Of a stretch of 64,000 nucleotides of DNA, positions 15,654 to 53,826 are shown piece by piece. Made by a program: the position numbers and the translations under genes. Source of the stretch: Halorubrum sp. PV6. Lineage in GTDB: Archaea > Halobacteriota > Halobacteria > Halobacteriales > Haloferacaceae. Every line of letters starts with the position of its first letter. Position 1 is the stretch's first letter. The stretch lies in assembly GCF_003990725.2 (NCBI RefSeq), contig NZ_CP030064.1:992001-1056000 (forward strand). The letters are read 5' to 3'. The notes beneath the pieces were generated by a model. The model did no database searches. It had not been told where the DNA came from and saw nothing but the letters and a program-made list of their open reading frames with translations.

Positions 15654-17285
15654 ATGCAGACCCGAACGCTGTCAGTCGTCCTCGTGAGTATTCTACTGGT
15701 CAGTAGTGGTGTCGGCGTCGGTGCAGTTGGTGCCGAGCTAACCGGCTCCAACGCTGCACCTAGCGTTGGCGTTGGAACACCTGCACAGGCCTCGAACATT
15801 GGTGGGTCTCCTGACCTCGACGTGTACGCCCCGAACCCGAACCTTGTCCCAGGGCGGACGAACGCAATCACGCTTCAGATAGCTAACGATGGGAACTTCC
15901 GGTTCGGGAACGCTGCGAACAGCGATCTTGTCACGACCGCGCGCAATGTCCGTGCCGAAGTCGAGGCGAACGGTCCACTATCTGTTGAGTCGGGTGAGAC
16001 ATCGATCGGCAGCGTGACAACAAGCGTCCCCAGCGAACTCCCGGTGAGTCTGAACGTACCAGAAGGCGTCGAGCCTGGAACATACACACTGGATCTGGAT
16101 CTCACCTACAGCTACATTTCTTCGGGTGAGAGCCGAACCGTGACCGTCTCCCGCGATGTGGAAGTTCGCGTGCGTGACGACGCCCGGTTCGAAGTGGTCG
16201 ACATCGACAGTGACGCACAGATCGGTGACAGCGGCACCGTTGAGGCGACAATCGAGAACGTCGGTGCGGAGACGGCCCGCAGTGCTGACGTGACTTTCGG
16301 GACGCAAAGTACCAGCGTCACAGTAAGTGATGGGCAATCTGACACCGTGCGGATTGAGGAAATCGACCCCGGTGAAACGGTGACCGTCGCATACGACGTG
16401 GGCGTCGCACCCGATCTCCCCGTCCAGCAATACACCCTCGCCGGCTCCGTGCAGTACGAGGACCCCGATGGGATCACCCGCACCGATGACGGACTCTCGC
16501 TCGGAATCCTCCCGCTTGCCGAGCAAGAATTCACCTTCGCGAACGTGGAGTCACAACTTCGCGTCGCTGAGGACGGCGAACTCGTCGGTACCGTTCGTAA
16601 CGATGGTCCTGTTCCGGCCCGTAGCGTTGTTGTTCAATATGCCGGTGATTCCCAGAGCGTGATCCCGGCGGAGCGGTCGACTGCTGTGGGGACACTTGAC
16701 TCCGGCGAGTCAGCGACTTTCTCTTTGCCCATCGCAATCGGCGGTGAAGCTGAGGCCGGACTCCGATCGCTGGATATGGCTGTTCAATACCGCAACGATG
16801 AGGACGAGATGCGAGCGTTTGAAGAACTTGTCGTCGATGTTGAGGTTGCGCCCGAACGTGACCGGTTTGATGTTGCTATCGAAAATCGGTCGATTCAGTC
16901 TGGTGGGACCCGTACTGTCGACGTTGCGGTGACAAACAATCTCAATGAAACTGCAAGCGACGTGGAGGCTCGGCTATTTGCCGATGACCCGCTTGACACT
17001 GGTGACACCGATACTGGATACGTCCAGTCACTCGATCCCGGCGAGACGACGACGATGACGTTCGAGCTGACAACGACCGGGTCTGCGACCGCAGGAAGTA
17101 CGTACCCAATCTCGCTCGACTTCCGGTATGATGATGCTGACGGTGACAGCCAGCTCACTGACACCTTCCGTGTCCCTATTGATGTGGTTGAAAGCGAGGA
17201 TGGTGGGCTACCGTTACCCGTTATCATCGTCGCGCTTCTCGTTGTCGGAACGGGGGCTCTTGTCGTCTACCGGAGGCGGCAGTAA
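15654..17285 (+). CDS. Secreted, membrane-anchored COG1361-type (CARDB-like) protein
   Basis: A 543-residue protein with a signal peptide (VVLVSILLVSSGVGVGAVGA), several beta-sandwich domains with repeated phrases such as DPGETVTV, DSGESATFSL and DPGETTTMTF, and a C-terminal transmembrane anchor (LPVIIVALLVVGTGALVVY) ending in arginines. This is the COG1361 S-layer-domain/CARDB pattern. It is 3 nt upstream of the RND transporter gene and surely cotranscribed with it, so it may act outside the cell as the transporter's accessory protein, taking the place of a bacterial periplasmic adaptor (inference). Confidence 0.8.
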   Translation: MQTRTLSVVLVSILLVSSGVGVGAVGAELTGSNAAPSVGVGTPAQASNIGGSPDLDVYAPNPNLVPGRTNAITLQIANDGNFRFGNAANSDLVTTARNVRAEVEANGPLSVESGETSIGSVTTSVPSELPVSLNVPEGVEPGTYTLDLDLTYSYISSGESRTVTVSRDVEVRVRDDARFEVVDIDSDAQIGDSGTVEATIENVGAETARSADVTFGTQSTSVTVSDGQSDTVRIEEIDPGETVTVAYDVGVAPDLPVQQYTLAGSVQYEDPDGITRTDDGLSLGILPLAEQEFTFANVESQLRVAEDGELVGTVRNDGPVPARSVVVQYAGDSQSVIPAERSTAVGTLDSGESATFSLPIAIGGEAEAGLRSLDMAVQYRNDEDEMRAFEELVVDVEVAPERDRFDVAIENRSIQSGGTRTVDVAVTNNLNETASDVEARLFADDPLDTGDTDTGYVQSLDPGETTTMTFELTTTGSATAGSTYPISLDFRYDDADGDSQLTDTFRVPIDVVESEDGGLPLPVIIVALLVVGTGALVVYRRRQ

Positions 17286-17288
17286 CCA

Positions 17289-19760
17289 ATGACACTCGGC
17301 GAGCGGATTGAGGCGTGGACGCGGCGGCTAAATGACACCATCGTCGATAGCCCACGCCGAGTCATCATTGCGTTTCTTGTGCTCACACTCGTGTTTACTG
17401 GCGGAATCGGACTCGTCAGCACAGACACCGAAGCAACTGACTCATTTACCGAGGGGCTTGAAGAACAGGAAGCGCTTGACGCGGTCAATCAAGAGTTCGA
17501 AGACCCATTTCAACCAGACAGCGAATCAACACAGATTATTCATTCGGGCGGTAACGTTCTGACGAAGGAAGCTCTGCTTAGGGATCTCAGAATCCTTGAA
17601 GAGGTTGAATCACGCGACGACCTCCGTGTTGCGTCCACAAGCGGCCCAGCGACGGTCATTGCCCAGCAGGTTGACCCGACAGCGACCACAGCAGCAGAAC
17701 AGCGACGCGCTATTGAGTCAACGAGTGCAACTCGGGTTCGACAAATCGTCCGCAGCCTCTCCGAGAACGCACGATTCACCCGATCACTCGCGACTGATTT
17801 CAACCCAACGAGTGCAAGTGCCTCAGCGTCAATTACGGTCGTTACACACGATGTCCCGGCTGGATTCGCTAGTGGCGACCTCCAAGACGTTCAAACAGAC
17901 ATTCGATCTATCGCAGCGGAACAACCCGGTGACATAACTGCCTTTGGCAGTGGCGTCACGAACGCTGAGACCGCCAGTGTCATCGGCGATTCACTGATCA
18001 TTGTCATGCCTGTTGTCGTGGTGTTGTTGCTGTTATTCTTAATCGTGGCTTACCGCGATCCGATCGATCTTTCGCTGGGGCTGCTATCACTATTAATGAC
18101 CGTTATCTGGACCTTCGGATTCCTCGGCTTGTCTGGGATCCCGTTTAATCAACAGATGATTACGGTTCCTGTGTTGTTACTCGCAGTAGGCGTTGACTTC
18201 GGGATCCATATTATCAATCGCTATCGTGAGGAGGCTGTTGCGGGATACAACGCTACCGAGGCGATGCGGGAAGCAAACAATCAACTGATGATTGCCTTCA
18301 TCATCGTCACCGTGACTACGGTATTTGGGTTCGGCGCAAATGTCATCTCTGATCTCACGCCGATCCGGAACGTTGGAATCGCCTCAGGTATTGGGATCAT
18401 TTTCACCTTCCTGATTTTCGGGCTGTTTCTCCCAGCAGCCAAATTGGAAGTTGACCAATTGCGAGATGCCTACAACGTCCCCGAATTCAATTCAGCACCA
18501 ATCTCATCTGAGGAGTCTACGCTCGGGAAAATCCTGACGTTTCCGGCGCAGGCCAGCCAGTACGCACCGATTGCGTTTGTGTTCGTACTGCTTGTGACTG
18601 GCGGGATGGCAGCTGCATACGGGAGTGGAGTTGACACCTCTTTTGAGACCGAAGACTTTCTTCCCCCAGAAGAGCAGCCGGACTACATAACGGCACTTCC
18701 AGAACCGTTTGCACCAAGTGAATACACCGTTACTGAGACACTAAATCTGCTTGAAGATCGCTTTTCGACTAACCAAGATCAATCAGTAAAGTTGTACGTG
18801 CAAGGCAACTTCGAAGAGGGCCACGCGTTGGAGGCCCTCGCAGATCCAAACGATGATGCTGTAGGGGCACTCGCAGTCGGCAGCGGCGGAGCTGCTCGTC
18901 CCACGAGTATTGTGACTGTCATCCAGTCACATGCTGAACAGGATCAGGAGTTCGCCAGACTGGTCGCTCGAAACGACCTCAACGACAACGGAATTCCTGA
19001 CCGCAATCTCGATCGTATCTATGATGAGCTGTTCGCGTCATCGTCCGGCGATCGTGCCGAGCAGTATCTCACACCAGATCGACGGAGCGCACAGGTCCAA
19101 TACGCAATTGATTCGGGTGCTTCACAAAGTGAGGCTGCTGGTGATGCCCGAGCATTCGTCGAGGACTTCCGGTATGAAACGACTGCAACTGGTCAAATTG
19201 TCGTTTTTGATGCGGTGACTGACATCATATTCAACTCTTCGATCCAAGGATTGGTGATTGCGATAGGGCTAACTGGCTTGTTCCTCATCATCGCGTACGC
19301 AGTACTCGAAAGCAAGCCGCTCCTCGGAATTGTGAATCTCTTCCCAATCCTGATCGCAATCGCGTTCCTACTCGGTACGATGCGATATCTCGGGATATCA
19401 CTAAACGCGTTAACTGGGACAATCCTCTCCATTTCAATTGGACTTGGGATTGCATACTCAGTCCATGCTACCCATCGCTTCGTTGATGAGTATAACGCGG
19501 GTGCTGGCGCTTATGAGTCAATGATTATCACACTTTCGGGAACTGGTGGTGCGCTCCTCGGGAGTATGCTTACAACGTCGCTCGGGACGGGCGCGCTTGC
19601 GCTTGCTATTACACCTGTGCTAGGTGATTTTGGCCTGCTAATGGCGATAAGTGTCATCTACTCATTTGTGTTCACAATTATTGCACTTCCTCCTGCAGTC
19701 CTTCTGTGGGAACGGTACCAAGGTGTCTGGACTGGGATCGACCTAGCAATAACGAGTTGA
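17289..19760 (+). CDS. RND superfamily (MMPL/HAE3-type) transporter
   Basis: An 823-residue transporter with duplicated RND architecture. One helix lies near residue 25, a large external loop (about 45-225) follows, then five helices (about 230-410). The second half repeats this with a helix near 435, a loop to about 640 and five helices to about 815. The SSD-like helix VPVLLLAVGVDFGIHIINRY carries the aspartate expected for proton relay, mirrored by ILSISIGLGIAYSVHATHRF, which lacks it. Likely substrates are lipids or hydrophobic compounds. It follows the CARDB-like gene by 3 nt with a GGAGG site, under probable TetR control. Confidence 0.88.
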   Translation: MTLGERIEAWTRRLNDTIVDSPRRVIIAFLVLTLVFTGGIGLVSTDTEATDSFTEGLEEQEALDAVNQEFEDPFQPDSESTQIIHSGGNVLTKEALLRDLRILEEVESRDDLRVASTSGPATVIAQQVDPTATTAAEQRRAIESTSATRVRQIVRSLSENARFTRSLATDFNPTSASASASITVVTHDVPAGFASGDLQDVQTDIRSIAAEQPGDITAFGSGVTNAETASVIGDSLIIVMPVVVVLLLLFLIVAYRDPIDLSLGLLSLLMTVIWTFGFLGLSGIPFNQQMITVPVLLLAVGVDFGIHIINRYREEAVAGYNATEAMREANNQLMIAFIIVTVTTVFGFGANVISDLTPIRNVGIASGIGIIFTFLIFGLFLPAAKLEVDQLRDAYNVPEFNSAPISSEESTLGKILTFPAQASQYAPIAFVFVLLVTGGMAAAYGSGVDTSFETEDFLPPEEQPDYITALPEPFAPSEYTVTETLNLLEDRFSTNQDQSVKLYVQGNFEEGHALEALADPNDDAVGALAVGSGGAARPTSIVTVIQSHAEQDQEFARLVARNDLNDNGIPDRNLDRIYDELFASSSGDRAEQYLTPDRRSAQVQYAIDSGASQSEAAGDARAFVEDFRYETTATGQIVVFDAVTDIIFNSSIQGLVIAIGLTGLFLIIAYAVLESKPLLGIVNLFPILIAIAFLLGTMRYLGISLNALTGTILSISIGLGIAYSVHATHRFVDEYNAGAGAYESMIITLSGTGGALLGSMLTTSLGTGALALAITPVLGDFGLLMAISVIYSFVFTIIALPPAVLLWERYQGVWTGIDLAITS

Positions 19761-19790: not shown

Positions 19791-19822
19791 ACGCCTCGCG
19801 CTTCAGCGCGGGGAGGATGTCA
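19791..19822 (+). mobile_element. Orphan right end of a TnpB-type IS200/IS605 element
   Basis: The stem-loop CCTCGCGC-TTCA-GCGCGGGG (19794-19813) followed by AGGATGTCA closely matches the right end of the intact TnpB element ending at 49442 (CCTCGCCCTTCAGGGCGGGG then AGGATGTCA). No tnpB is attached. The final TCA is also the stop codon of the cetZ gene on the other strand, so this end abuts or was inserted at the gene's 3' end. Confidence 0.65.
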
Positions 19823-21235
19823 ACTACTACTGTCGCTTTCAATGTCACCGAAATCAAATTCATCGGTTCGTACACCCTCGTCCACGGGTGACTGGGTATT
19901 TTGTTGATCGGCACTCACCATATCAGGCCCTTTGATTTCAGACGGCTGTTCCACGGTTTTATCTGAATCAGTAGCTTCTTGAATAGCAACTGCTCGACGC
20001 TGTAGTTGATCGATTCGTGGGACGCCCGTCACATTTGAGAGCACTACTGTTGCCGTGAGTTGTGTGGCGTTTTTTATTGACTCATCACCCGCAAGAACCT
20101 CGACAGTCTTGGTCTCTTCTTCAAGAAGATACCGCCCCGTCTCGAAGCCCTTACGCGAGATTGTGTTTGGTGGACCAGTGAGGATAACGAGGACACGGTC
20201 CGCTGAGGTGATGTCACACGGGACGGTCATTTTTGACTGAACTGATCGGCTGATGAGGTCTTTCACAGTTGATGCGTCAACTGAGATAGTATTGCTTTCG
20301 GGTGACCGCCCGAGAAGCTGAAGAATCCGGGCAAGCAACCCTTCGGGTTTCATATCAATGTCAACCTTTGCTTGACCGATCGTCGCAACGCCACCAATCT
20401 CAAGCGTTCGCTTGATATCTGTCGCGTCGATCCGCACCTCGGACGCAGACCCCCGGTCACGTTCTCCCGCACCGAAGATTCCCAACACCCGCTCGACAGC
20501 CATCGTATTGATCGACTCATAGCAGTCAGCGACACGATCCGTGTCTTGACACCACGCATCGTTGTCAACGAGAAACACAGCGTCTGCTTTCGGGACCACT
20601 GTTCGGACCCCACGAGCTGCGGTCAGGATCCGGCGGTCAGGCTCCCCACAAGCCGGGAGCACACCGAGTGCATACACTGATGTCTCGTAGATCGATTGGA
20701 GTTCCTCCAAGAGGATGCTTCCGACGCCACAACCGGTCCCGCCACCCAGCCCAGTAACAAGCAGTATGGCTGCAACCTCTGTTTCATCGATCCGATCAAG
20801 CGCTCGGCGAATCTCTGGCCCATCAGCTCGTGCTACTTCTGCACCCACTTCTGGATCGCCGCCCACGCCGTATTCGGTCACTTCTGCGGTCAGGTGGCTT
20901 CCGTCGGCGTTGACCGTACTATGTGACTCGCGTGGTGTCGCCGCGGCAGTGGCCGCATCTACTGCAGTTGCCGTCTCATCGGCGGGGCGTGGCTTGTCGT
21001 CTCCGTGTGAACGATCATCATCTGGCTCTCGCCGGGTGACTTCGGGATGGGTATCGCCGATAAGCACTTGCTGGTCATCAGTGAGTGCTATTGTCTGGTC
21101 GAAGGCTTGAGACTCAGTGTTGAACGCAAGCACATTTCCACTCGTCACAGATCGGTCTGTCTCGCGTTCAGCGCAGACCAACCGGTCGACAAGTCGCGTT
21201 CCACAGTCTCCAACCCCGATACACGCGATTTTCAT
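19820..21235 (-). CDS. CetZ-family tubulin-like GTPase with insertion
   Basis: A 471-residue tubulin/FtsZ superfamily protein. The tubulin signature is GGGTGCG (about residues 164-170), against GGGTGSG in most CetZ. Other CetZ landmarks are CIGVGDCGTRLVDRLV, VYALGVLPA, VFLVDNDAWCQ and LEIGGVATIGQAK. It is longer than its 390-residue neighbour because of a polar, Ala/Thr/Asp-rich insertion of about 55 residues (about 66-122) between the first GTP-binding loop and the VGGDPEVGAEVA helix, plus an acidic tail ending FDFGDIESDSSS. CetZ proteins shape cells and affect motility. It lies 63 bp downstream of a second cetZ, probably in one operon. Confidence 0.85.
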   Translation of the reverse strand: MKIACIGVGDCGTRLVDRLVCAERETDRSVTSGNVLAFNTESQAFDQTIALTDDQQVLIGDTHPEVTRREPDDDRSHGDDKPRPADETATAVDAATAAATPRESHSTVNADGSHLTAEVTEYGVGGDPEVGAEVARADGPEIRRALDRIDETEVAAILLVTGLGGGTGCGVGSILLEELQSIYETSVYALGVLPACGEPDRRILTAARGVRTVVPKADAVFLVDNDAWCQDTDRVADCYESINTMAVERVLGIFGAGERDRGSASEVRIDATDIKRTLEIGGVATIGQAKVDIDMKPEGLLARILQLLGRSPESNTISVDASTVKDLISRSVQSKMTVPCDITSADRVLVILTGPPNTISRKGFETGRYLLEEETKTVEVLAGDESIKNATQLTATVVLSNVTGVPRIDQLQRRAVAIQEATDSDKTVEQPSEIKGPDMVSADQQNTQSPVDEGVRTDEFDFGDIESDSSS

Positions 21236-21298: not shown

Positions 21299-22471
21299 TC
21301 AGACGATCGGATCCAGGTCATTATCGTCATCCGTAATTAGCGACTGTATTTCCTCCTCGCGAACGGCATCTTGCTGTTGGATCTTATTTTGGGCGTCAAC
21401 AGCCTGATTCTGAATTTCGTTGATCCGGGGCGTGTCGGTCACGTTCGAAAGTAACACTACAGCCGCAAGTGTCGTAGAATCCGGACGGGGGTCGTCACCG
21501 GCAAGGACATCAACAGTGTCCGCTTTTTGTTCGAGCCACTCTCTGGCGGACTCGACACCTTTCCGGGAAATTACATCCGGCGGACCAGCGAACACGATGA
21601 GCGCCCGGTCAGCACTCGATACATCGCACGGTACAGTAAGCCGCGAGTTGGTTGCTCGGCGAACCAGTCCCTTGATTTTTGCCGCGTCAGTAGACTCGCG
21701 TTGGACTTCTTCTGACTCGTTGAATTTTGCCAGTAACCCCTCTTTTGCGACAGTAACATCCGTTGATGCGTAACCAATTGAAGAGACACCCCCGGTTTCA
21801 AGCGTTCGCATGATGTCACTGGAGTCCATGGCATTTTCACCGACTTCCGACTCATCAACTTCCCCTGCCGCGAGCAGCGTGACAATCCGTGTTGCCAGCT
21901 CTTCGTTCATCTCTTCGTATCCTTGCTCTATCGTCTGTCCGCGAGAGCGCCACGCATCATTATCGAAGGCGATGAAGTTGTCGACTTTATTAACAAACGA
22001 TTGAAGTGAGCGGGCGGCGTTGAGTGCCGGTCGGCCACCCTCATAAGTTCCGGGCAGTACCCCAAGCCCATAGACCGGTTCGTCATACATCTTTTGTAGC
22101 TCCTCGATGACAACCGGCGCGGCGCCACTGCCAGTCCCGCCACCGAGGCCGGCAGCGACGAGAACCGCATCAACTTCGTGTATCTCGACGTCGTCAAAGA
22201 CGCGCCTGATCTCATCGATATCCGTTTTGGCAACCTCGGCCCCGATCTCGGCGTCACCGCCGACACCGTGACCACGAGCCTTCCGATGGGTGTCGCCGAT
22301 CAAGACGCGACGGTCTTCATCGATGTGTTGTGGCTTAGCGAGGTCAGTTCGAGCGGTATTAATGACAAGCGCATGCCGACAAAGATTACGGCCCGTTTCA
22401 AACTCGAATTCGATCATCTGATCGATGAGTTTGCTCCCTGCATTCCCGACGCCGATGGTTGCAAGCTTCAT
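21299..22471 (-). CDS. CetZ-family tubulin-like GTPase
   Basis: A 390-residue tubulin-superfamily GTPase with the canonical CetZ layout: ATIGVGNAGSKLIDQMI, RRVLIGD, HGVGGDAEIGAEVAK, GGGTGSG (residues 110-116), VYGLGVLPGTYEGGRP, FIAFDNDAWR, LETGGVSSIGYAS and IVFAGPPDVISRKG. It should polymerise with GTP under the membrane and control cell shape. It is the first gene of a probable two-cetZ operon, and is the parent-like sequence of the decayed inverted copy at 38.8-40.0 kb, whose surviving blocks are nearly identical. Confidence 0.9.
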   Translation of the reverse strand: MKLATIGVGNAGSKLIDQMIEFEFETGRNLCRHALVINTARTDLAKPQHIDEDRRVLIGDTHRKARGHGVGGDAEIGAEVAKTDIDEIRRVFDDVEIHEVDAVLVAAGLGGGTGSGAAPVVIEELQKMYDEPVYGLGVLPGTYEGGRPALNAARSLQSFVNKVDNFIAFDNDAWRSRGQTIEQGYEEMNEELATRIVTLLAAGEVDESEVGENAMDSSDIMRTLETGGVSSIGYASTDVTVAKEGLLAKFNESEEVQRESTDAAKIKGLVRRATNSRLTVPCDVSSADRALIVFAGPPDVISRKGVESAREWLEQKADTVDVLAGDDPRPDSTTLAAVVLLSNVTDTPRINEIQNQAVDAQNKIQQQDAVREEEIQSLITDDDNDLDPIV

Positions 22472-23833: not shown

Positions 23834-25042
23834 ATGCAACGGACACGGCGCGAGCTATTAACTGTAGGAGCCGTTGCCGCTGGGTTTAGCGGGTGTCTAA
23901 GTGTTGAAGGTGTTCGATATCCCGATGAACTCCCTGACGAAAATGAAACGGACGGGACAGATGGTTCTGATGAGCGCCCTGACGGTGAATCGTCTGTTCC
24001 ACACTCCGAGATAGCGGCCGCGACCCGCGACATTGTTACCGACACAGTTTGGTTTGCAACCGTGTATCGAAAAGCGATCGACACGTATCGTGACGCGACC
24101 GCTGACATCCTCACCGCGGTTTCCTCGATTCGAGAACAGATCCGGGACCCAAGTGACCCAGCCACCGAGATGGTTACACGGCTCGAAACGGTCAGCTATG
24201 AGGCGGCTGAGCGGGCGGCAGCAGCGCTTGAACCGCATTTTTTCCCCCGTGAGCTCATCCAGTCGCGGATCGATAGCCACCTCCCAGCTTTGTTTCGATC
24301 AGCTCGACGGAACGACGCTGATCGGTTTGTCGAGGAACTCAACCGAGTCTCCCGGACGATTTCACAGATTCGCACACCAATATATATCAACGGGACGTTC
24401 TCACGGGATCCAATCCACAATCGACTCCTTGACCGTCTCGCCCCAAGCAACGCATCTGAAGTCCTCGTGGAGCTGGCAGTACCAGCTCACCGGTTCACAA
24501 CGGTTGCACATCGTCCGTATACTGACGACGATCGCTTCCCGCCAGAGTTCACTGCGGAGCCGCTCGCTCAGACTCGACGAGATAAGCTACGGAAGCGTCT
24601 GGGGCCAGTTGTCCAAGCACCTAACCGCGTCCGCGAGGTGTTCTACACGGTTGCACCGCGCCCGTCAGCTACTGATCGGGCTGCGGATGCGTTTTCGGGG
24701 TCTCCGGGTGATCTTGACGTGGTCCCTATCTACGTCCAACAGTACGCAGATGTTGACGCTGCGGCTGACACAATGGAGACCGTCCTCGAGGCTGGTGAAA
24801 CCGACGGTCAGGAACCGCTCTTGCCCGAGACCGAGGCGGCCGACGATGCGGCTCGTTGGTACCGATACTACCATCGTGAGGCGCGAAGCGACCGAACTGA
24901 CCTCGATCGGTTCCCCGGCGTTCAGTACGGCTACTTTCTGCAGGCTGGCGAGTTCCTTCTTGCCACGGGCTTTTCTGGCGATGCATGGGAAGAGCGCCCA
25001 CGCTGGCAGGGCCGACTGTCCGATGTATGGGTGACGATATGA
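23834..25042 (+). CDS. Tat-exported lipoprotein of unknown function
   Basis: A 402-residue protein whose N terminus MQRTRRELLTVGAVAAGFSG followed by Cys is a twin-arginine signal with a lipobox, so it is exported folded and lipid-anchored at about Cys21. A disordered Asp/Glu/Gly linker (DELPDENETDGTDGSDERP) follows, then a helical domain (about 60-190) and a mixed domain containing RPSATDRAADAFSG and LDVVPIYVQQYADVDAAA. No family was recognised. The start at 23834 is preferred over 23813 by the TATA box. Its stop overlaps the next lipoprotein gene, so they are coupled. Confidence 0.75.
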   Translation: MQRTRRELLTVGAVAAGFSGCLSVEGVRYPDELPDENETDGTDGSDERPDGESSVPHSEIAAATRDIVTDTVWFATVYRKAIDTYRDATADILTAVSSIREQIRDPSDPATEMVTRLETVSYEAAERAAAALEPHFFPRELIQSRIDSHLPALFRSARRNDADRFVEELNRVSRTISQIRTPIYINGTFSRDPIHNRLLDRLAPSNASEVLVELAVPAHRFTTVAHRPYTDDDRFPPEFTAEPLAQTRRDKLRKRLGPVVQAPNRVREVFYTVAPRPSATDRAADAFSGSPGDLDVVPIYVQQYADVDAAADTMETVLEAGETDGQEPLLPETEAADDAARWYRYYHREARSDRTDLDRFPGVQYGYFLQAGEFLLATGFSGDAWEERPRWQGRLSDVWVTI

Positions 25043-25647
25043 CTCGACTATCCTCGCGGCGGCAGTTCCTTGCGGCCGCCATCCCTATCGCACTCGCGGG
25101 ATGTCTCGTGGAGGGCGAATCGAACGCGGCCGATCAGACCAGGGAGACGGCCAACGGTGACCAAACTGCGGAGCCGACACCGGCGACAAGCGCCGAGTCG
25201 ACCACGGGTGAGACAAACGACGGGCCCGGTGACGGGGGGTCGAACGGGGATACAGCCGGCGACTCCAGTGAGGCGCTGCCTGACCCTGCTGGGATCACGG
25301 TCGAAGAGACTGAGATTGTTCGGATTGTTGAGTCGAATCTGCTGTCGCAGGTGGTGGCTGACATAACTATTCGCAACACCGGCGAGCGCACGTACGGTAC
25401 GCTCGAACTCCGGGTTGACGCCTACTACGAACCGCCGGAAGACGACCGAACGTACCACCCACCACGGGTCAACGAGCGGACGGCTATTGGGCGGACATAC
25501 GTTGAAGACGAGTTCGAGTCGTTCGACTCCGGGACGCAGACCTTCGAGGATGTGGTGGTGCAGTACGACGCTGAGGACGCCAATGGTTCAACCGATCCGG
25601 CCGAGTTCGAGTTAGAAATCGTGGTCCGCCGTGCGGAGCCGTTGTAA
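25039..25647 (+). CDS. Tat-exported lipoprotein with FxLYD-like beta domain
   Basis: A 202-residue protein starting MTRLSSRRQFLAAAIPIALA then GC, a Tat signal with lipobox. A long Thr/Gly/Asp linker (about 25-75) leads to a beta-sandwich domain (VADITIRNTGERTYGTLELR, FDSGTQTFEDVVVQYDA) like the FxLYD domains of haloarchaeal lipoproteins. It overlaps the preceding gene by ATGA, so the two lipoproteins are probably made together. Function unknown; a structural or binding role on the outer membrane face is inferred. Confidence 0.75.
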   Translation: MTRLSSRRQFLAAAIPIALAGCLVEGESNAADQTRETANGDQTAEPTPATSAESTTGETNDGPGDGGSNGDTAGDSSEALPDPAGITVEETEIVRIVESNLLSQVVADITIRNTGERTYGTLELRVDAYYEPPEDDRTYHPPRVNERTAIGRTYVEDEFESFDSGTQTFEDVVVQYDAEDANGSTDPAEFELEIVVRRAEPL

Positions 25648-25685
25648 ACTTTCCATAGTCAAAGCCGTGATGGACGACGGACTCA

Positions 25686-26522
25686 TCATACGACTACAGC
25701 GGCAACACCACCACCCAAGATTGCGAGCCCCCCCAATCCGAAACAGACCGCCCAGAATGGGACACGGTCGACGAATCGCATTAACGCACCAATGGTCAAA
25801 TACCCAACTACGCCGCTTACTGCGAGTGCTACCCCAGCAGCGATCGGCGTAATCCCCGGAAGCCCGCCTGCGCCGACGAGCGTCAGGGCAGCGGCACCGA
25901 GACTCGCTGGAATTGAAAGCAGAAATGACAGTCGAAAGGCAGCCGGTGGATCATAACTCCGAAATAGAAGTGCACTTGTCGTGACACCTGAGCGTGAAAC
26001 ACCGGGGAGAATTGCTATTCCCTGTACGGCGCCAACAAGTATGGAATCAGTGAACGTCGGTTTCTCACGACCGCCAAGTCCGACCGACTCGGAGGCCAAC
26101 TGGATGCCACCAGTAAGAATAAGCAGGACGCCGATTCCAGCGATGAACACCCCACCCGTGAGCTGACCGGCAATATCAACCGCAAAAACGTACAGCGGAA
26201 TCCCGACGAGACCGGTACACAGTGAGGCGATCCCGATGTATGAGACAATCGCAGACTCACCCTCGTATGCGTGTGATGGCCGCCAGCCGGGTGTTGCACG
26301 AAGCGCAGCCGCGACTTCGTCTCGATAGTATGCCGCTGCAGAGACTGTCGTTCCAAGCTGTAAGAACAGCGCAAGCTGAACGGCCATAGCGGGACTAGTG
26401 CCAAGAAAGGTCAACACGAGTGCGAGATTACCTTGGCTTGAGACAGGCAACCACTCAACGATGCCCTGGACAACCCCCGCGAGGATGGCAACTGTAATCT
26501 CCGTAGTAATCACTACACACAT
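25686..26522 (-). CDS. uppP: Undecaprenyl-diphosphatase-like polyprenyl phosphatase
   Basis: A 278-residue membrane protein of the UppP/BacA family with eight or so helices. Signature motifs are GVVQGIVEWLPVSSQGN (about residues 16-32) and ILPGVSRSGVTTSALL (about 170), with the essential Glu, Ser and Arg residues present; the family's usual His after SSSG is Asn here. In archaea it should recycle the C55-C60 polyprenyl/dolichyl pyrophosphate carrier of glycan synthesis. A TTTAAG box about 22 nt upstream supports a leaderless start. It lies downstream of a DUF4330/membrane-protein pair on the same strand. Confidence 0.88.
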   Translation of the reverse strand: MCVVITTEITVAILAGVVQGIVEWLPVSSQGNLALVLTFLGTSPAMAVQLALFLQLGTTVSAAAYYRDEVAAALRATPGWRPSHAYEGESAIVSYIGIASLCTGLVGIPLYVFAVDIAGQLTGGVFIAGIGVLLILTGGIQLASESVGLGGREKPTFTDSILVGAVQGIAILPGVSRSGVTTSALLFRSYDPPAAFRLSFLLSIPASLGAAALTLVGAGGLPGITPIAAGVALAVSGVVGYLTIGALMRFVDRVPFWAVCFGLGGLAILGGGVAAVVV

Positions 26523-26611
26523 CAGGTTTGCGAATGAACTTAAACCGATTCGTTTGTCGGTCAGCTACAGATCCTTGAAGAGAGCCAACAGTTTTAGCTT
26601 GTGCGGCGCGG

Positions 26612-27262
26612 TTAAGATTCATCTCTTGGCGGCGATTCCGGTTTAGTTGAGTGCTCGCTGGACACAGCCGTCGCATCCGTCTGATCTGGCCGATCGTGGG
26701 GCAGCCCACCGCTATCAATTTCTGTATCAGACGAGTCGGTCTGAGTAGGCGGGTCAGGCGGTTCAAGCGCTGCAACGAGCAGTTCGACTGGTCGTGTCTC
26801 ACGAAGTGTATCCCAGCTACGGCGGTCGCGGGTTACAGCGATGCCAGCGAGAACGGCACCGAGTCCGACAGCTAGCTGCGTTGTTGACATCGTGTCGCGC
26901 ATAACGCCTATCAGTGTGATGAGGAGGCCGCCAATCGCGAGACTGACTCCGCCAGCTGCCAGTGGTGCAGCGTATACCATCCGAAATCCTCTCTGTGTAA
27001 CACGCAGCACCCCTGCGTTTTTGACCGCGGGCCGTAGCCGGTGTATGACGATATCGAGCAGCCGAAGGATGGGGCCAACAGTCCACGTCTCGCGGAGGTC
27101 GATCACAATCACCTCTGGGTCGGGCTCAGCAGTCAGCCACTGATACAGAAACGACGCCTGGACGACAGCCACAAGGCGCCGCCAGAGTGTGGCAACGCGT
27201 GAGTTACGCGCCGCTTGCCGGAGTGTTTGGGTGGTGTCTCCAGTGTCAGTGCTGGTGTCCAT
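26612..27262 (-). CDS. Membrane protein of unknown function
   Basis: A 216-residue protein. A soluble N-terminal part (about 1-95) contains EVIVIDLRETWTVGPILRLL and HRLRPAVKNAGVLRVTQRGF, then two hydrophobic helices follow (YAAPLAAGGVSLAIGGLLI and TTQLAVGLGAVLAGIAVT), with a polar, Pro/Asp/Ser-rich tail. No family was recognised. It starts 8 nt after the DUF4330 gene ends, so both are one operon, and the polyprenyl phosphatase gene follows 89 bp on. Confidence 0.65.
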   Translation of the reverse strand: MDTSTDTGDTTQTLRQAARNSRVATLWRRLVAVVQASFLYQWLTAEPDPEVIVIDLRETWTVGPILRLLDIVIHRLRPAVKNAGVLRVTQRGFRMVYAAPLAAGGVSLAIGGLLITLIGVMRDTMSTTQLAVGLGAVLAGIAVTRDRRSWDTLRETRPVELLVAALEPPDPPTQTDSSDTEIDSGGLPHDRPDQTDATAVSSEHSTKPESPPRDES

Positions 27263-27270
27263 ACCGGGAG

Positions 27271-28368
27271 TTACTGTGTGGCCATGACGACTTCCGCTTC
27301 GACAGTTACCGTTCCGAGATCGAGTACAACCGTCGATCCCTGCCGGAGTTGGTCACCTTTGAACGTGAGTCCGGCGGGCGTCTCGCGTAGCTGCAGGTCA
27401 GCCGTAATTGTGACATCACGGTTGACCGGATGGTCGGCAACGTTGATGCTTCCATCTTCACCCGTCGCGATAATAAGTGAAGGCTCGGTCTCGACGTCGG
27501 TAATGCGGGCCACGGTCGTATCTCCGGTGCGTTCTATCATCCCGGGCTCGATTGCATCGGCGTAATCTTCACGAACATCTTCCATCCGGAGCGTCACTGT
27601 CCGTGTCGTCATCGCGCCGAGGCTCCCATCACCACCGACCTGTTCGATCTGCCCGTCAAGCACATACTCCTCTGTTGGGAGTGTAATCGTCTGGCCACGA
27701 CGGAGCGGCTGACCGCTGAAGCGGCGTTCTCCCTGTTGGTGGTGTGCAGTAAGCGAGACGGCTGCGAACACACGCCGCTTGGTGGTATTAGTTGCATACG
27801 TGGTGACATCCTCAATTTGGGCTACAGTCCGGCCGGCGACGCGAATTTCATCGCCCGGCCTGATTGCCTCGGCTGTTCCTGCATCAAGCTCTGTCGTGAG
27901 AGTGACGCGCTGCTGTGATTGCGTCAGCGCATCAGATTCACCAACCTCACGAAGCTGGCCGGTCACGGTGTAACGGTTCGTTTCGAGCGTCAGACTCCGG
28001 CCAAGTCGCGGTGGGGCTCCAGCGTACACGAGGTTGTTCTGATTGTTGAGCTGCCCTTCCAATGCCACACGGAGTAGGACTCTCGCGTTCCCGTCTTGTG
28101 GTGTGAGATGGACGTCTGTCACCCGGAGCGTCGAGGAGCCGTCGGGTTCGTAGGTGTCGCCCTCTTCGATTGCGTCAACAATGTACGACTCTTGAACGCC
28201 CAGATCTAGCGTGGCGTACGTCGTCTCGGTGTCGGGGGCAGGGGCAGGATCATCGGAAAGTACGAACGCGGCCCCCGCGACCACAACCGCAACAATAACC
28301 AGCACGACAAGCGCGTCGATGACGTTTACCGCGCCGAAAAGTCGGCCATCGTCGTCGATTAGCTCCAT
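27271..28368 (-). CDS. DUF4330 membrane-anchored protein
   Basis: A 365-residue protein starting MELIDDDGRLFGAVNVIDAL, the typical DUF4330 beginning, followed by one transmembrane helix (VVLVIVAVVVAGAAFVLS) and a large extracytoplasmic beta-rich region. That region has two related halves, with AVALEGQLNNQ-type and LTTELDAGTAEAIRPGDEIR-type blocks. DUF4330 proteins are found in cyanobacteria and haloarchaea near surface polysaccharide genes, and the function is unknown. The frame extends to 28485, but the ATG at 28368 begins the family domain. Divergent from the VanZ-like gene. Confidence 0.82.
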   Translation of the reverse strand: MELIDDDGRLFGAVNVIDALVVLVIVAVVVAGAAFVLSDDPAPAPDTETTYATLDLGVQESYIVDAIEEGDTYEPDGSSTLRVTDVHLTPQDGNARVLLRVALEGQLNNQNNLVYAGAPPRLGRSLTLETNRYTVTGQLREVGESDALTQSQQRVTLTTELDAGTAEAIRPGDEIRVAGRTVAQIEDVTTYATNTTKRRVFAAVSLTAHHQQGERRFSGQPLRRGQTITLPTEEYVLDGQIEQVGGDGSLGAMTTRTVTLRMEDVREDYADAIEPGMIERTGDTTVARITDVETEPSLIIATGEDGSINVADHPVNRDVTITADLQLRETPAGLTFKGDQLRQGSTVVLDLGTVTVEAEVVMATQ

Positions 28369-28518
28369 GCGAGAACCTCCAGAGGCTGCATTACGATGTG
28401 GGTGTGTCGGGCAAGACAAAAACGTACCTGTTTGCCAAGAGATAGACGCCACACCAGTTGGTGTGTCGCTCCGACTAATCCACACTCTTTACACTTAGGA
28501 CGTGAATTCTCACGCGAG

Positions 28519-28962
28519 ATGGGTCGGATCCGCGTGCCGCTGGTTCCACGGACGCTGCGGTGGGGAGTAGTCATTGCCGTCGCAGCGATGATTCTGTATT
28601 ATTCGGTGTTTACCCCACCAGGAAGCGGCGCGATCCGAACCGGGCCGTTTGGAGTCTTTGCGTACGGCGTGTGGCTGCACGGACTCGCATATGCCGGGCT
28701 TGCGATCACGCTCGCATACGCCGTTCAAGACAGGCCATGGCGAGACCGCACAGTTCTCGTCGGTGTCTTTCTCATGGCAGTTGGCTACGGAGTGGGAGTT
28801 GAACTGCTTCAATCAACGCTGGCGACACGGACGGCTGCTTTCGACGATATTCTCGTGAACGCGGTCGGTGCCGGCGTCGCCGCGGTCTGTTGGCGGGTGC
28901 TGACACGTCGGGTCAGGTTCTATCGCGCGCAGCGGTTGGCAGAAATCGAAATGCCGGTCTGA
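28519..28962 (+). CDS. VanZ-like membrane protein
   Basis: A 147-residue protein with four helices and the VanZ-type core VGYGVGVELLQSTLATRTAA followed by FDDILVNAVGAGVAA, where the E-Q and D-N residues are conserved. VanZ-family proteins in haloarchaea are linked to surface glycan or teichoplanin-type functions, with no proven activity. A TTTACA box about 27 nt upstream of the ATG at 28519 supports this start over 28396. Divergent from DUF4330, possibly sharing regulation. Confidence 0.78.
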   Translation: MGRIRVPLVPRTLRWGVVIAVAAMILYYSVFTPPGSGAIRTGPFGVFAYGVWLHGLAYAGLAITLAYAVQDRPWRDRTVLVGVFLMAVGYGVGVELLQSTLATRTAAFDDILVNAVGAGVAAVCWRVLTRRVRFYRAQRLAEIEMPV

Positions 28963-29158
28963 GTTTTCTCCTACGACTTCACAGTGGGTGCCGAAGTAGC
29001 TGAGTCGTTGTTTTTGTTGTTGATGACCTATCCGTGGCATGATTCACGCAATCGTCTCTGTCGCGGCCCATCATTATCTCAATTTTGATAATTATCGCAG
29101 TATATTCTTATACTCTACTACATCAACAATAGTACACAGACGAGTTTATCAGTGTAAT

Positions 29159-30757
29159 ATGACCCTCCACATCACGCAACTACTCCGAGAAATCACTTAC
29201 AGGCACTTGGCGACTGCTTTGTGTGTTATGTGTCTCTTACTCCTAGCCGTGTATACGGGGGCCGGGTCTGTAACAGCAGAGGGGACGACAGTCAACATGA
29301 CTATAAATAATGAAGATGCTACGGATGAGGCCGAATTGGTAGTCTTTGAAGACCCGGATACAAACATTACAGTCACGGCAAATACTCCGATAGATTTACT
29401 CGAAATTCGTGTTAATGGTGACATCTACCGTTCATACCGGCCAAACTCCACCCAGTTTGACCGCTCTCTTACACTTGAGTTAGACCCCAACGAGAATACA
29501 GTTGAGACAATTGTCAAAACGGACGGGCTAACAACCATACAAACCTCCGTAACGAAGCATACAGCCGCGCCTCGTGTGCGATATACTTCGCCGTTCTCGA
29601 CAACCGTCAAAGGGGGGCCAAATAGCACAATAAACGTGACGAGTGGACAGGTTGCACTAGCTGGTGATTTCCATACGATGTTGGATGTTGAGCGGGTTCG
29701 GATTGAACGAACCACTAACTACGGACCTGGTGAAAATAGTTCTCAAGTCGATCGAAGAATCCATCGTATTTCGAATCCTGGGGATTCATTCTCTCAAGAA
29801 TTGTTACTCGCAAACGGAACGAACGATATTGTTGCGGAGTACACGGACAGTCGAGGCCGCACAAACACCGATCGGTTCTCGATTATCCTCGACGATGAAA
29901 CCGACCCGCAGATTGAGTTCACAGCCGAAAATGAAAGCTATACTGACACCGCGCACATCAGTGGAGTAATCCGGGATGAGACTAAACTCACACGCGTTGA
30001 AATAAACCGGACCTCCAATAATGGGTCACAGGTACTGCTGTTGAGTGGAAACGCAAAGCCAAACCCAGATATGCTGAGATATGAATTTGATACGACAGTA
30101 GATCTATATGATAATAACGAGGACAACGAGTTTCAAATCACAGCAGAAGACGCTGCGGGGAACATCCGGAATAGGACGCTCTCAATTCGGTATGAGCCTG
30201 AGCCAGATGTGAGTGTTACAGAGGCGACTACTAATGTAGAAACAGAAACAGTCCGTGTTACCGGGACAGTTTCGGAAGCAGAGATTAGTCGGGTTACGGT
30301 TGAGACAGTTGATACACGCACTGGTGAACGGACTGACCTCGTTCGGCTGTATGACGCAGGGAGATTTACTGATAAAGTAAATATTGATCAAGAGCTCAAA
30401 GCCTCTCCTGAGAATACACTGGTATACGTGTTGGTTAATTATCGTACTGGAGAGTACTCAACAAAAATCACTCCAGACGTATCGGACACACAACAGGACA
30501 CAGACGCAGACACTGACACAGCATCTGCTACTACCATAAACTCAACAAATTCTACGGAAACGAATACCACGATACAGAACGCACGTAGTGAGGACACACG
30601 TAACAAAAGCGTCAACGATACAGAGAGCACTGGCGAGGACGGGCCACCATCGGACACTGGACCAGAGTCTCCGACGCTTCTCCCAATCCGCACACGTGAT
30701 GCTCTTGGTGGAATCGTCGTTGTGGGAGGGACTTACTTACTTGGACATTGGGTCTGA
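29159..30757 (+). CDS. Secreted surface protein rich in N-glycosylation sites
   Basis: A 532-residue protein with a signal peptide (LATALCVMCLLLLAVYTGAG), repeated Ig-like beta domains and many N-x-S/T sequons, for example NMTINNEDAT and NNGSQVLLLSG. Phrases such as NAGNIRNRTLSIRYEPEPD-type blocks recall cadherin/Big-like repeats. A Thr/Asp/Asn-rich stalk (about 455-500) leads to a weakly hydrophobic C terminus (GGIVVVGGTYLLGHWV). It is likely an exported, glycosylated cell-surface protein. The upstream ATG at 29039 would put the signal peptide too far inside, so 29159 was chosen. AT-rich compared with the core. Confidence 0.72.
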   Translation: MTLHITQLLREITYRHLATALCVMCLLLLAVYTGAGSVTAEGTTVNMTINNEDATDEAELVVFEDPDTNITVTANTPIDLLEIRVNGDIYRSYRPNSTQFDRSLTLELDPNENTVETIVKTDGLTTIQTSVTKHTAAPRVRYTSPFSTTVKGGPNSTINVTSGQVALAGDFHTMLDVERVRIERTTNYGPGENSSQVDRRIHRISNPGDSFSQELLLANGTNDIVAEYTDSRGRTNTDRFSIILDDETDPQIEFTAENESYTDTAHISGVIRDETKLTRVEINRTSNNGSQVLLLSGNAKPNPDMLRYEFDTTVDLYDNNEDNEFQITAEDAAGNIRNRTLSIRYEPEPDVSVTEATTNVETETVRVTGTVSEAEISRVTVETVDTRTGERTDLVRLYDAGRFTDKVNIDQELKASPENTLVYVLVNYRTGEYSTKITPDVSDTQQDTDADTDTASATTINSTNSTETNTTIQNARSEDTRNKSVNDTESTGEDGPPSDTGPESPTLLPIRTRDALGGIVVVGGTYLLGHWV

Positions 30758-30824: not shown

Positions 30825-31100
30825 TCAGTCGGTGGTCGACTCCCACAGCGTGCCGACTCGCTCGTCAACCCACGGGAGCACAGTCTCCTCGAGAACGCGC
30901 GTGAGATCCGTCGCGTAGTTCCGGTCGACCGCGGCAGCCGTGCCCGCGTCCGGAAGCGGATGGTAGTGATCCCGGGCGTTGTGTGGCTGGTCGTGCCGGT
31001 CCCATTGACACCCTCGTCGGACGCCGGCGTATGTCTCGTGGTACGAGACGTGAAAGTCGCTGTTCGTGTACGCGCGAATTTCGAGCGAGACGTCGTCGAG
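30825..31100 (-). pseudogene. N-terminally truncated toxin-like gene (same family as 51415-51870)
   Basis: The frame encodes EIRAYTNSDFHVSYHETYAG, then RGCQWDRHDQPHNARDHYHP and a C terminus LPWVDERVGTLWE. It shares the CxWDRHxxPxxxRxHxHP pattern with the protein at 51415-51870, which pairs with a DUF7342-like regulator. The frame continues to 31187, but that part is antisense to a sugar-nucleotidyltransferase fragment, so the original N terminus appears lost at a recombination point near 31100. I recall such proteins as haloarchaeal toxin-like (TumE/DUF6516-type), but the family call is tentative. No partner regulator is present here. Confidence 0.5.
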
Positions 31101-31394
31101 AAGCCCGAGAACCCGCCAAGCAATCTGGTTATGACCGGATTCTGCACCTTCTCGCCCGCCATCTTCCACGCGTGTCACCTCGTCCAACCATCGAACCGCG
31201 ACGAGTACGAGATCAGCGACGCCGTCGACCTCCTCATCCAGTCTGGTCGGACCATCGACGCCATCGGCCTCGACGGCTGGCGCATCGACGTGGGGTACCC
31301 CAAAGACCGTGACGAGGCCGAACAGCGTCTCACTGGTGGCTCACAGAGCGGCGGAGAACAGAGTACAGACAGTACGGCCGAATCTGACGACTGA
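31092..31394 (+). pseudogene. C-terminal fragment of an AglF-like sugar nucleotidyltransferase
   Basis: The reading VVEKPENPPSNLVMTGF, then IFHACHLVQPSNRDEYEISD and GRTIDAIGLDGWRIDVGYP is the C-terminal third of a glucose-1-phosphate uridylyl/thymidylyltransferase (AglF-type). The N-terminal pyrophosphorylase motif (AAGxGTRLxPLT) is absent from the window at this place. Sequence before about 31092 does not match the family. It lies beside sugar-transferase and surface genes, so a complete copy probably once served the same glycosylation locus. Confidence 0.75.
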
Positions 31395-31511: not shown

Positions 31512-32927
31512 TCATTCTGTAGGCGTCCCGCGGATCGTCGCCACCACATCCAGTCCGACCTTCCAAATCTGGCGAACGACGAGTTTCAGATCGTAGGTGA
31601 ACGACTGCTGTTTGACGTACTGTAGATCATATCGTAATTTCTCTTCGGGGTCCGTACTTTTTGCGTCGTTCACCTGCGCAAGCCCCGTCAGTCCCGGCTT
31701 GACGAACCAGCGTTTACGCCAGGACCGTTCTTGGGCCTCTAACAACGACTCTTCTTCAGTCCACACGGCACGCGGCCCGACGACGCTCATGTCCCCGACA
31801 AGGATCGACCACAGCTGTGGAATCTCGTCGAGATGCGTCTGTCGCAACACCTTCCCGACTCGCGTAATCCGATCATTCACCTCGTCATCGACCGGCTCGA
31901 CAGACTCTCTCTCAGGGACCATCGACCGGAACTTGAACACCTCGAACGTCTCCCCGAACACCGCTGTGCGCTCTTGACTGTACAAGATCGACCCACCGTC
32001 ATCCAGTTTGATCGCGACCACGATTGCACCGATGACGGGGCTCAACGTCACCAAACCAACCGCCGCAAACACGACGTCAAAGCCACGCTTGAGGATGTGA
32101 TCTTGGATGTCCCACGGCTCGACATCGACACTGACCAGCGTTCCGACATCGTCGTCGGCAGTCAACACCCGGTCGGCGTGGTCGCGATGGACAAGCGCGT
32201 CAACACCGTGTTCGTAACAGGCATCAAGTGCACCGAAGAACTCGGCCCGGTCTGTGTGCTCGAACGCCAGAACCACTGTGTCAACGTCACACTCGACCAG
32301 CACGTCCTCAATGCGAGAGAGCCCACCCAGTCGATCCAGCCCCCCGAGTGTGAACCCACCGTCCGCGACAGCCGTCACCGGAGTTGACGACCGCTCAGTT
32401 AGAAACACACTCGTGGGACACAGATGTCCGAGCAGTGGCATCTCGATATCGTTCGCGAGGCGCTCGATCTCGCCCGGGTCGTCGCCCACGATGATTGCGC
32501 GCTCGGCGTCACCACTTGGCCGCCCTCGGATCCAAACAAACCACGCAGGTAGCATGACGAGCAACAGCGGCGTGATCACGATGAGCGTCGCCCGCGGGAG
32601 TCGATACGTGTAATCGAAGTAACCGATTGCGGCGAGCGTCAACACGGCAACCATCACCCGCTTTTGCGTGAGTGCGACTGTGTCAAGAATGCGCCGCGGC
32701 CGGGGTTTGTACAACGGCAGAAACGCCGCCGTGACGATGAGGACCGTCGTCGCCATCTCGAACACAAACTCGGTGCCCATCGGCGCGTCCACGGCCAGCC
32801 GACCGATCACTGGTAACTGAGTGAGCACCGTGTGGACTACGGTGCTGTTTGCGACTGCAACCGCAAGGGCAGTAACGACTGCGACGCCGCCAACGCTGCG
32901 CAGTCGATACTGCCACCCGGAAAGCAT
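31512..32927 (-). CDS. Polyprenyl-phosphate glycosyl-1-phosphate transferase (bacterial sugar transferase family)
   Basis: A 471-residue protein with four or five N-terminal helices, a central nucleotide-binding-like domain (about 140-260) and the C-terminal catalytic PHPT domain. The catalytic part has ILKRGFDVVFAAVGLVTLSP, FEVFKFRSMVPE, LRQTHLDEIPQLWSILVGDM then SVVGPRA, and KPGLTGLAQVN. It moves a sugar-1-phosphate from a nucleotide sugar to a membrane polyprenyl phosphate, the first step in building a lipid-linked glycan. The start at 32927 is fixed by a TTTATATA box 27 nt upstream. It fits with the nearby STT3-like and UppP genes. Confidence 0.9.
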   Translation of the reverse strand: MLSGWQYRLRSVGGVAVVTALAVAVANSTVVHTVLTQLPVIGRLAVDAPMGTEFVFEMATTVLIVTAAFLPLYKPRPRRILDTVALTQKRVMVAVLTLAAIGYFDYTYRLPRATLIVITPLLLVMLPAWFVWIRGRPSGDAERAIIVGDDPGEIERLANDIEMPLLGHLCPTSVFLTERSSTPVTAVADGGFTLGGLDRLGGLSRIEDVLVECDVDTVVLAFEHTDRAEFFGALDACYEHGVDALVHRDHADRVLTADDDVGTLVSVDVEPWDIQDHILKRGFDVVFAAVGLVTLSPVIGAIVVAIKLDDGGSILYSQERTAVFGETFEVFKFRSMVPERESVEPVDDEVNDRITRVGKVLRQTHLDEIPQLWSILVGDMSVVGPRAVWTEEESLLEAQERSWRKRWFVKPGLTGLAQVNDAKSTDPEEKLRYDLQYVKQQSFTYDLKLVVRQIWKVGLDVVATIRGTPTE

Positions 32928-47119: not shown

Positions 47120-47563
47120 CTACTCTCCGGACGAGAGCGTGCTCGGCACGAGTCGGGTAACGACACCGTCGAAATCGTCGTCGAAACTCAACACGGAGTC
47201 GATATCGTGGTGTTCGACGTGGACCACGGTCATCGCGTCAGTGAAGCTCAGACGGTGCTCGGCGTACTCCTCTTGTATCGTCACCGCGCGGTCGAAGAGC
47301 GTCTGGGACGAGTGGAGCAGGTTGATAGCCGACGGGTATCCCTCGCCCCGGATTCGTCGGCCGACTTCGAGTCCGGCCTCGACGTCACCCGTTCGTCGCT
47401 GGGTCAGCGTTACCGTCTCGTCGTAAATGTAGTCGCTCGTCATCACGTGACCGTATTCGGGCGATCTGAGAACGGTGTTTAGTGCCGCCATCCCCGTCTC
47501 GTGCCGGCCGGCATCGGTATCGTGGTGCGCGTAGAACACTCCGGTATCGACGAAGACGCTCAT
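47120..47563 (-). CDS. vapC: PIN-domain ribonuclease toxin (VapC-like)
   Basis: A 147-residue PIN-domain protein. The metal-binding acids are Asp in SVFVDTGVFYAHHD, Glu in YIYDETVTL, Asp in LSFTDAMTVV, and Asp in VLSFDDDFDGV. VapC toxins cut RNA, usually tRNA or rRNA. Its ATG overlaps the stop of the upstream small gene (ATGA), giving the classic antitoxin-toxin coupling. All active-site residues are present. Confidence 0.85.
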   Translation of the reverse strand: MSVFVDTGVFYAHHDTDAGRHETGMAALNTVLRSPEYGHVMTSDYIYDETVTLTQRRTGDVEAGLEVGRRIRGEGYPSAINLLHSSQTLFDRAVTIQEEYAEHRLSFTDAMTVVHVEHHDIDSVLSFDDDFDGVVTRLVPSTLSSGE

Positions 47564-47835: not shown

Positions 47836-47972
47836 ACGTGTCGGTTGTGTCCGCAACGTAGTTAATCTTTACACTGAAAACCGCAGTGATCGTACTGCGG
47901 CCATCGCAGGTCGCTTTCTCCACTCGATCCCGCTCGCCACAACACTATCCGTCTGTACTCTCTCGGTCGATT

Positions 47973-53782: not shown

Positions 53783-53796
53783 CGGACCGCGAGCGA

Positions 53797-53802
53797 TTTA
53801 AA
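53797..53802 (+). promoter_or_regulatory. TATA box for the second nucleotidyltransferase
   Basis: TTTAAA centred 27 nt upstream of the ATG at 53827. The gene therefore has its own leaderless promoter inside the apparent operon. Confidence 0.65.
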
Positions 53803-53826
53803 CCGCAGGCGGGCGACGGTTGCCAC

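Follow-up and report, generated by a model that had tools for sequence, protein, structure and literature searches.

The window analysed here is a stretch of 64,000 nucleotides from the 3.04-Mb genome of the haloarchaeon Halorubrum sp. PV6, in which six adjacent envelope genes had been flagged. These encode two twin-arginine (Tat) lipoproteins (LP1 and LP2), a UppP/BacA-family polyprenyl-diphosphate phosphatase, a two-helix membrane protein, a DUF4330 protein and a VanZ-family membrane protein. UppP, the membrane protein, DUF4330 and VanZ are almost certainly one arm of a real module, the core of which lies outside the flagged interval and consists of a polyprenyl-phosphate sugar-1-phosphate transferase (PGT), a divergent homologue of the oligosaccharyltransferase (OST) AglB/STT3, here called STT3b, and the gene for the surface (S-) layer glycoprotein. 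Judged from sequence and gene context, the flagged genes probably belong to a second, STT3b-based surface glycosylation pathway, separate from that of canonical AglB. It is very likely that this pathway builds a glycan on polyprenyl diphosphate, PGT chemistry and UppP being established families and their link a genetic one; that STT3b serves as an S-layer OST is a rather likely prediction.

Co-occurrence and clustering of the gene set

Profile searches for PGT, UppP, STT3b and DUF4330 over 243 Halobacteriales genomes found 159, 141, 122 and 106 carriers, respectively. All four genes are present in 80/243 genomes and all four are missing in 76/243. PGT is found in 119/122 STT3b genomes, 106/106 DUF4330 genomes and 135/141 UppP genomes; STT3b and DUF4330 occur together in 96 genomes (odds ratio 41), and 87/106 DUF4330 genomes have UppP (within-genus p=3e-8). 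Co-occurrence odds ratios run from 7 to 80 or above, with p values of 3e-8 to 5e-13 when tested within genera. The sample of the window's own genus comprises eight genomes with all four genes, one in which only STT3b is missing, one with PGT alone and four with none. The window PGT itself joins a Bac_transf domain (PF02397, 190 bits) to an N-terminal membrane part, TIGR03025 matching over residues 48-457.

The genes are also observed close together. DUF4330 and UppP lie <10 kb apart in 31/76 genomes with both on one contig, and the median distance between STT3b and PGT is 5.8 kb, 77/93 same-contig pairs falling within 30 kb. Compact loci in three genomes (G252, G254 and G282) carry DUF4330, the membrane protein, CetZ and UppP, followed by VanZ, STT3b and an S-layer gene, and are flanked by Wzx, glycosyltransferases and a sulfatase. 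The wider neighbourhood survey covered 60 loci, nearly all with DUF4330 at the centre, pair order being scored in 58. The two-helix protein stands directly 3′ of DUF4330 in ~42/58 of these, also in Halobacterium salinarum, and UppP is present in 33. Genes for GlmS, GlmU-like proteins, PGT, Wzx-like proteins, glycosyltransferases, epimerase and VanZ recur there, as does a large membrane protein family that includes the window's STT3b. A VanZ homologue is near or abuts STT3b in seven relatives, and relatives also have pairs of GlmS- and GlmU-like genes next to DUF4330, UppP or STT3b. That functionally unrelated genes came together by chance in a variable surface-protein island is very improbable: such an account holds for the two lipoproteins, whereas for the other flagged genes it is contradicted by co-conservation (within-genus p<1e-7, with the odds ratios above) and by a gene order that recurs in distant families.

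The loci and the co-occurrence bear out the suggestion, made in the preliminary description, that UppP, the membrane protein, DUF4330 and VanZ are conserved together and have to do with the chemistry of lipid-linked surface glycans; the neighbourhood check that it proposed found DUF4330 and UppP co-conserved elsewhere. Its phrase for the function, a system that exports or recycles a glycan, is supported as to the lipid-linked glycan and too general, PGT, STT3b and the S-layer gene having been missed. With these three, 3-13 kb away, the predicted function becomes the more specific one of S-layer glycosylation.

STT3b and its putative acceptor

The STT3b profile matches the solved AglB of Archaeoglobus fulgidus (3WAJ) over its full length (E=4.6e-58) and canonical haloarchaeal AglB in hhalign (100%, E=5e-76), and the C-terminal AglB-type part is present. 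The catalytic residues are kept, namely NDP with the aspartate of external loop (EL) 1, DHx (EHR in a few), xxE of EL5 and the arginine of QvRF. In STT3 enzymes the acidic, metal-binding and EL5 residues activate the acceptor amide, and the arginine contacts the carrier phosphate. For AglB, D47, the D161/H163 region and E360 are named as catalytic in a review (PMC7226087), according to which the WWD motif, conserved across all three domains, binds the +2 Ser/Thr. In STT3b, WWDYG is replaced by (V)(L/F)SxWxxNRx(Y/F)N in 32/32 distinct sequences; because of this, and because the NCBIfam cut-off is not reached, we regard STT3b as an AglB-derived variant and not a canonical OST. It further differs from canonical AglB by an extra N-terminal domain of ~100 residues, of which residues 1-88 are probably, as modelled, a separate winged-helix domain. 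The two groups are split by a score gap (STT3b at least 668 bits, canonical AglB at most 609, one fragment aside), and the motif counts and clean STT3b profile leave out L057, which is a canonical AglB recognised by its WWDYG. Canonical AglB itself exceeds the cut-off in 235/243 genomes, and the copy of the window's genome lies outside the window.

A different reading of the motif loss would make STT3b a GT-C enzyme outside protein N-glycosylation, either a Wzy- or WaaL-like polymerase or ligase of a surface polysaccharide or an enzyme with a non-Asn acceptor; the module would then make an exopolysaccharide or S-layer-associated polysaccharide, and UppP would recycle the carrier. We consider this rather unlikely. 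The sequon-binding motif is gone from all 32 distinct sequences, the nearby PGT, Wzx, sulfatase and epimerase genes resemble those of exopolysaccharide loci, and the S-layer gene is distant in several families; yet the residues that activate the acceptor amide are kept together with the C-terminal AglB-type part, and STT3b adjoins S-layer genes both in the window's genus and in H. salinarum.

The acceptor proposed for STT3b acting as an OST is the S-layer glycoprotein encoded about 2.6-2.8 kb away (TIGR04216, 689 bits against a cut-off of 400), which matches PGF-CTERM (1.2e-12) and a signal-peptide model (2.6e-6) and has the predicted mature N-terminus VNADDAEN. In ten other genomes of the genus STT3b has an S-layer-like gene 0.2-1.4 kb away, the product of which shares this signal peptide. 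With the window and the relative G234 counted in, the first Asn lies at most 4 residues from the end of the AAPAAA signal in 11/12 S-layer proteins beside STT3b versus 7/24 others (p=9e-4), where the others may have STT3b elsewhere, the cleavage sites are predicted, and the cut-off of 4 was picked after inspection, a cut-off of 2 giving p=0.13. The corresponding N-terminus is predicted as ANADQVL in H. salinarum; in the relative G173, from which the module is absent, it is without an early Asn. A mature Asn-2 as the mark of all STT3b genomes was considered and dropped, other families being without it.

Besides the choice of that cut-off, several observations weigh against the proposed pathway. 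UppP is missing in 19/122 STT3b genomes and has no PF02673 match in H. salinarum (G064), so that another phosphatase or other carrier recycling would be needed there. The single-sequence AlphaFold models are poor, with a predicted local distance difference test (pLDDT) score of 42 for STT3b, confident at residues 1-88 only, and of 37 for DUF4330. In the other families that carry STT3b, the S-layer gene stands far from it and an early Asn is often missing, and the S-layer link is therefore suggestive and not general. Finally, 26 genomes with PGT and UppP carry neither STT3b nor DUF4330, from which it follows that the former two can serve other polysaccharides.

Those 26, among 33 genomes with PGT and UppP but without STT3b, also suit the idea that UppP and DUF4330 take part in de novo lipid-carrier supply for all pathways, by dephosphorylating freshly synthesised dolichyl diphosphate or flipping the carrier, and stand near STT3b only through an exchangeable surface-gene island; the window does lie in an island of low GC that carries TnpB genes. 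Many genomes with canonical AglB are nevertheless without UppP and DUF4330, so neither is needed for the main pathway, and gain and loss within genera are joint, which makes this idea improbable.

The flagged genes and the island around them

The layout given in the preliminary description, in which LP1 and LP2 share an ATGA overlap and converge on minus-strand genes for UppP, the membrane protein and DUF4330 with VanZ divergent, agrees with the profiles and coordinates (Table 1). UppP scores 161.6 bits against a BacA cut-off of 33.4 and falls below the NCBIfam equivalog cut-offs. Ser26-Ser27 and Glu21 of the active site are found in 28/28 haloarchaeal members and PGxSRSG (Arg174) in 27/28, PGITRSG taking its place in the remaining one, while Glu17 of the BacA mechanism is Gln in these members (n=28). 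The His of SSxGH, a residue for which a role has been reported elsewhere, is not kept (N, T, S, A or G in 28/28). The mechanism residues used for comparison are those of PMC5852022, and the portion of that paper drawn on here assigns no role to this His.

The two-helix membrane protein has no Pfam or NCBIfam match. For DUF4330 the open frame extends to a GTG at 28485, but conservation points to the ATG at 28368 as start codon. A transmembrane helix at the N-terminus followed by beta repeats suggests that the protein sits on the outer face. The same architecture is that of the lipid-binding MCE/MlaD barrels, to which similarity is weak in 12/37 DUF4330 relatives (best 1.5e-7); the window protein is below the MlaD cut-off (14.5 bits versus 25.1, E 0.044), and, unlike those systems, no ABC partner was seen. 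Its profile gave nothing significant against PDB sequences, and DUF4330 is mentioned nowhere in the open-access literature searched. A role for DUF4330 and its membrane-protein partner as OST accessory is possible, and we offer it with some doubt. Two observations speak for it, namely co-occurrence with STT3b and, in three genomes that belong to a single genus of a different family, a DUF4330 gene 1.3-1.6 kb away from canonical AglB instead of beside STT3b. The cyanobacterial DUF4330 neighbourhood examined is without a clear glycan cluster.

LP1, for which there was no Pfam match, is confined to the window's genus (28/59 genomes). LP1 and LP2 both occur in G173 and G234. G173 carries none of the module, yet it has this island, including the CetZ pair and the lipoproteins, the latter beside its S-layer gene. 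Their inclusion in the system, as first put forward, was accordingly rejected: they are hitchhikers of the S-layer island. In G234 another member of the TnpB cluster lies near LP1 (L198:5662-6942). In three relatives (L270:1179-2354, L271:2843-4186 and L272:18061-19236) CetZ separates uppP from the DUF4330-membrane-protein pair, a position that suggests a link of the glycan machinery to the cytoskeleton or to S-layer growth at midcell. A broken extra copy of the second window CetZ gene, in three frames, is found just upstream of the S-layer gene at 38855-39910.

The GC content is ~0.70 on the left flank of the window and around 51-55 kb and 0.49-0.63 across 14-50 kb; the latter stretch is taken to be an island that was inserted or exchanged. 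Within it are the CetZ genes, the S-layer glycoprotein gene, the flagged genes and two TnpB genes (NF040570; 33254-34495 on the minus and 48048-49394 on the plus strand). At its edge (15654-19760) a gene for a CARDB-domain secreted protein is directly followed by one for an MMPL/RND-family transporter (HAE3-like). Two small overlapping genes at 47120-47856 encode proteins of 147 and 98 amino acids, the former (start MSVFVDTGVFYAHHDTD) looking like a PIN-domain toxin, of which the latter could be the antitoxin. The AglF-type remnant adjoins PGT, and the same genome also has an intact GlmU-like gene. The Ig-like protein has homologues next to the S-layer gene, one in H. salinarum (1e-26) and one in G173.

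Table 1. Features of the window and related loci (window coordinates unless a contig is named)
Feature	Position	Strand	Profile match or remark
Source stretch (window)	G000:C1:992001-1056000		3.04-Mb haloarchaeal genome
CetZ tubulin-like gene	19820-21235	-	PF21011 2.9e-44
CetZ tubulin-like gene	21299-22471	-	PF21011 1.8e-67
LP1, Tat lipoprotein	23834-25042	+	RR motif, lipobox FSGC
LP2, Tat lipoprotein	25039-25647	+	RR motif, lipobox LAGC
UppP/BacA-family phosphatase	25686-26522	-	BacA PF02673 3.8e-47
Two-helix membrane protein	26612-27262	-	216 amino acids; upstream of UppP, same strand
DUF4330 protein	27271-28368	-	PF14221 3.1e-31, three stretches; N-terminal transmembrane helix, tandem beta repeats
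VanZ-family membrane protein	28519-28962	+	PF04892 1.3e-8
Secreted Ig-like protein	29039-30757	+	Associated with S-layer island
AglF-type UTP-glucose-1-phosphate uridylyltransferase remnant	31086-31331	+	NF041313 1.2e-40, model positions 153-234/234; C-terminal third only
PGT	31512-32927	-	PF02397 3.1e-56, TIGR03025 4e-78
STT3b	35950-38487	+	TIGR04154 4e-26, below cut-off
S-layer glycoprotein	41068-43578	+	TIGR04216 7.6e-207; proposed acceptor
Phosphosugar mutase	50096-51418	+	Likely amino-sugar nucleotide supply
GlmU-like	53200-55011	+	Likely amino-sugar nucleotide supply
GlmS-like	55014-56879	+	Likely amino-sugar nucleotide supply
Canonical AglB of the same genome	C1:1108675-1111536		Outside the window
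STT3b of H. salinarum	G064:C1:932302-934620		Beside the S-layer gene
DUF4330 beside canonical AglB	G022:C1:35549-40036		
DUF4330 beside canonical AglB	G045:C1:276994-281463		
DUF4330 beside canonical AglB	G116:C1:1201336-1206100		

Proposed pathway and the Asn-2 glycan of Halobacterium salinarum

In the pathway that we infer, with its activities, acceptor site, glycan and accessory roles all predicted, PGT would move a sugar-1-phosphate onto polyprenyl (dolichyl) phosphate, so that the sugar becomes linked through a diphosphate. Glycosyltransferases would lengthen the glycan and a Wzx-type flippase turn it outward, both gene types being found in the relatives' loci. STT3b would then load it on the S-layer glycoprotein, probably at an Asn of the mature N-terminus and without the Ser/Thr of a sequon, and UppP would hydrolyse the released carrier diphosphate for reuse. 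Accessory membrane or spatial roles would fall to the DUF4330-membrane-protein pair and, with less regularity, to VanZ and CetZ. Initiation by a PGT on polyprenyl phosphate, a Wzx-type flippase and carrier recycling by UppP are shared with the bacterial PglB and Wzx/Wzy pathways, which differ from the present case with its archaeal S-layer acceptor, DUF4330 pair, CetZ association and absence of peptidoglycan. Compared with canonical AglB (GT66 STT3), the predicted external transfer to the S-layer glycoprotein is the same, whereas STT3b co-occurs with PGT and UppP and most AglB-only genomes are without these.

H. salinarum is the source of the first prokaryotic N-glycoprotein. In the genome of its type strain a 16-kb stretch carries the Ig-like homologue, the S-layer gene, STT3b, GlmS, two GlmU-like genes and PGT, the part from the S-layer gene through PGT spanning 14 kb; this PGT is 72% identical to that of the window. 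DUF4330 and its partner are on another contig, beside sugar-nucleotide and glycosyltransferase genes. The S-layer glycoprotein of this species bears a second N-glycan at Asn-2, which is transferred from a dolichyl-diphosphate carrier, GalNAc-linked and bacitracin-sensitive, with a replaceable Ser-4, and a single OST gene was recognised (PMC2952790; PMC8674786); the AglB-type tetrasaccharide is carried on dolichyl monophosphate (PMC8674786). In 2019 the processing of the Asn-2 glycan by AglB was "still not clear" (PMC6591318), and a 2023 profile of the organism counts its multiple glycosylation pathways among the questions still open (PMC10202317). No assignment of a transferase to this glycan was found in the open-access literature searched.

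STT3b and PGT, as predicted from their sequences, fit this gap. The chemistry would be alike in its diphosphate carrier, S-layer acceptor and sequon-independent Asn, and both genes are neighbours of the S-layer gene there; the Asn-2 pathway differs in being known biochemically, its link to the genes being indirect and UppP missing. The fullest form of the proposal is that the WWD-less STT3b glycosylates an N-terminal S-layer Asn independently of a sequon and is the missing second OST, the one that serves the dolichyl-diphosphate repeating-unit glycan of H. salinarum, with DUF4330 and its partner as dedicated accessory subunits; this we consider almost evenly balanced, leaning slightly towards doubt. 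The families themselves are already known, and neither their combination, the WWD-less STT3 clade nor a connection of that clade with the orphan glycan of H. salinarum was found in the open-access literature searched. The control genomes of the model species Haloferax volcanii have no match for DUF4330, UppP or PGT, which may be why the gene set was overlooked.

An OST without WWD, a motif described as conserved in all three domains, would inform the question of how acceptor sites are chosen. For a question about H. salinarum that has stood for decades the gene set is a candidate solution, and since it is co-inherited and places a WWD-less STT3 next to the S-layer gene, that question is directly open to gene deletion.

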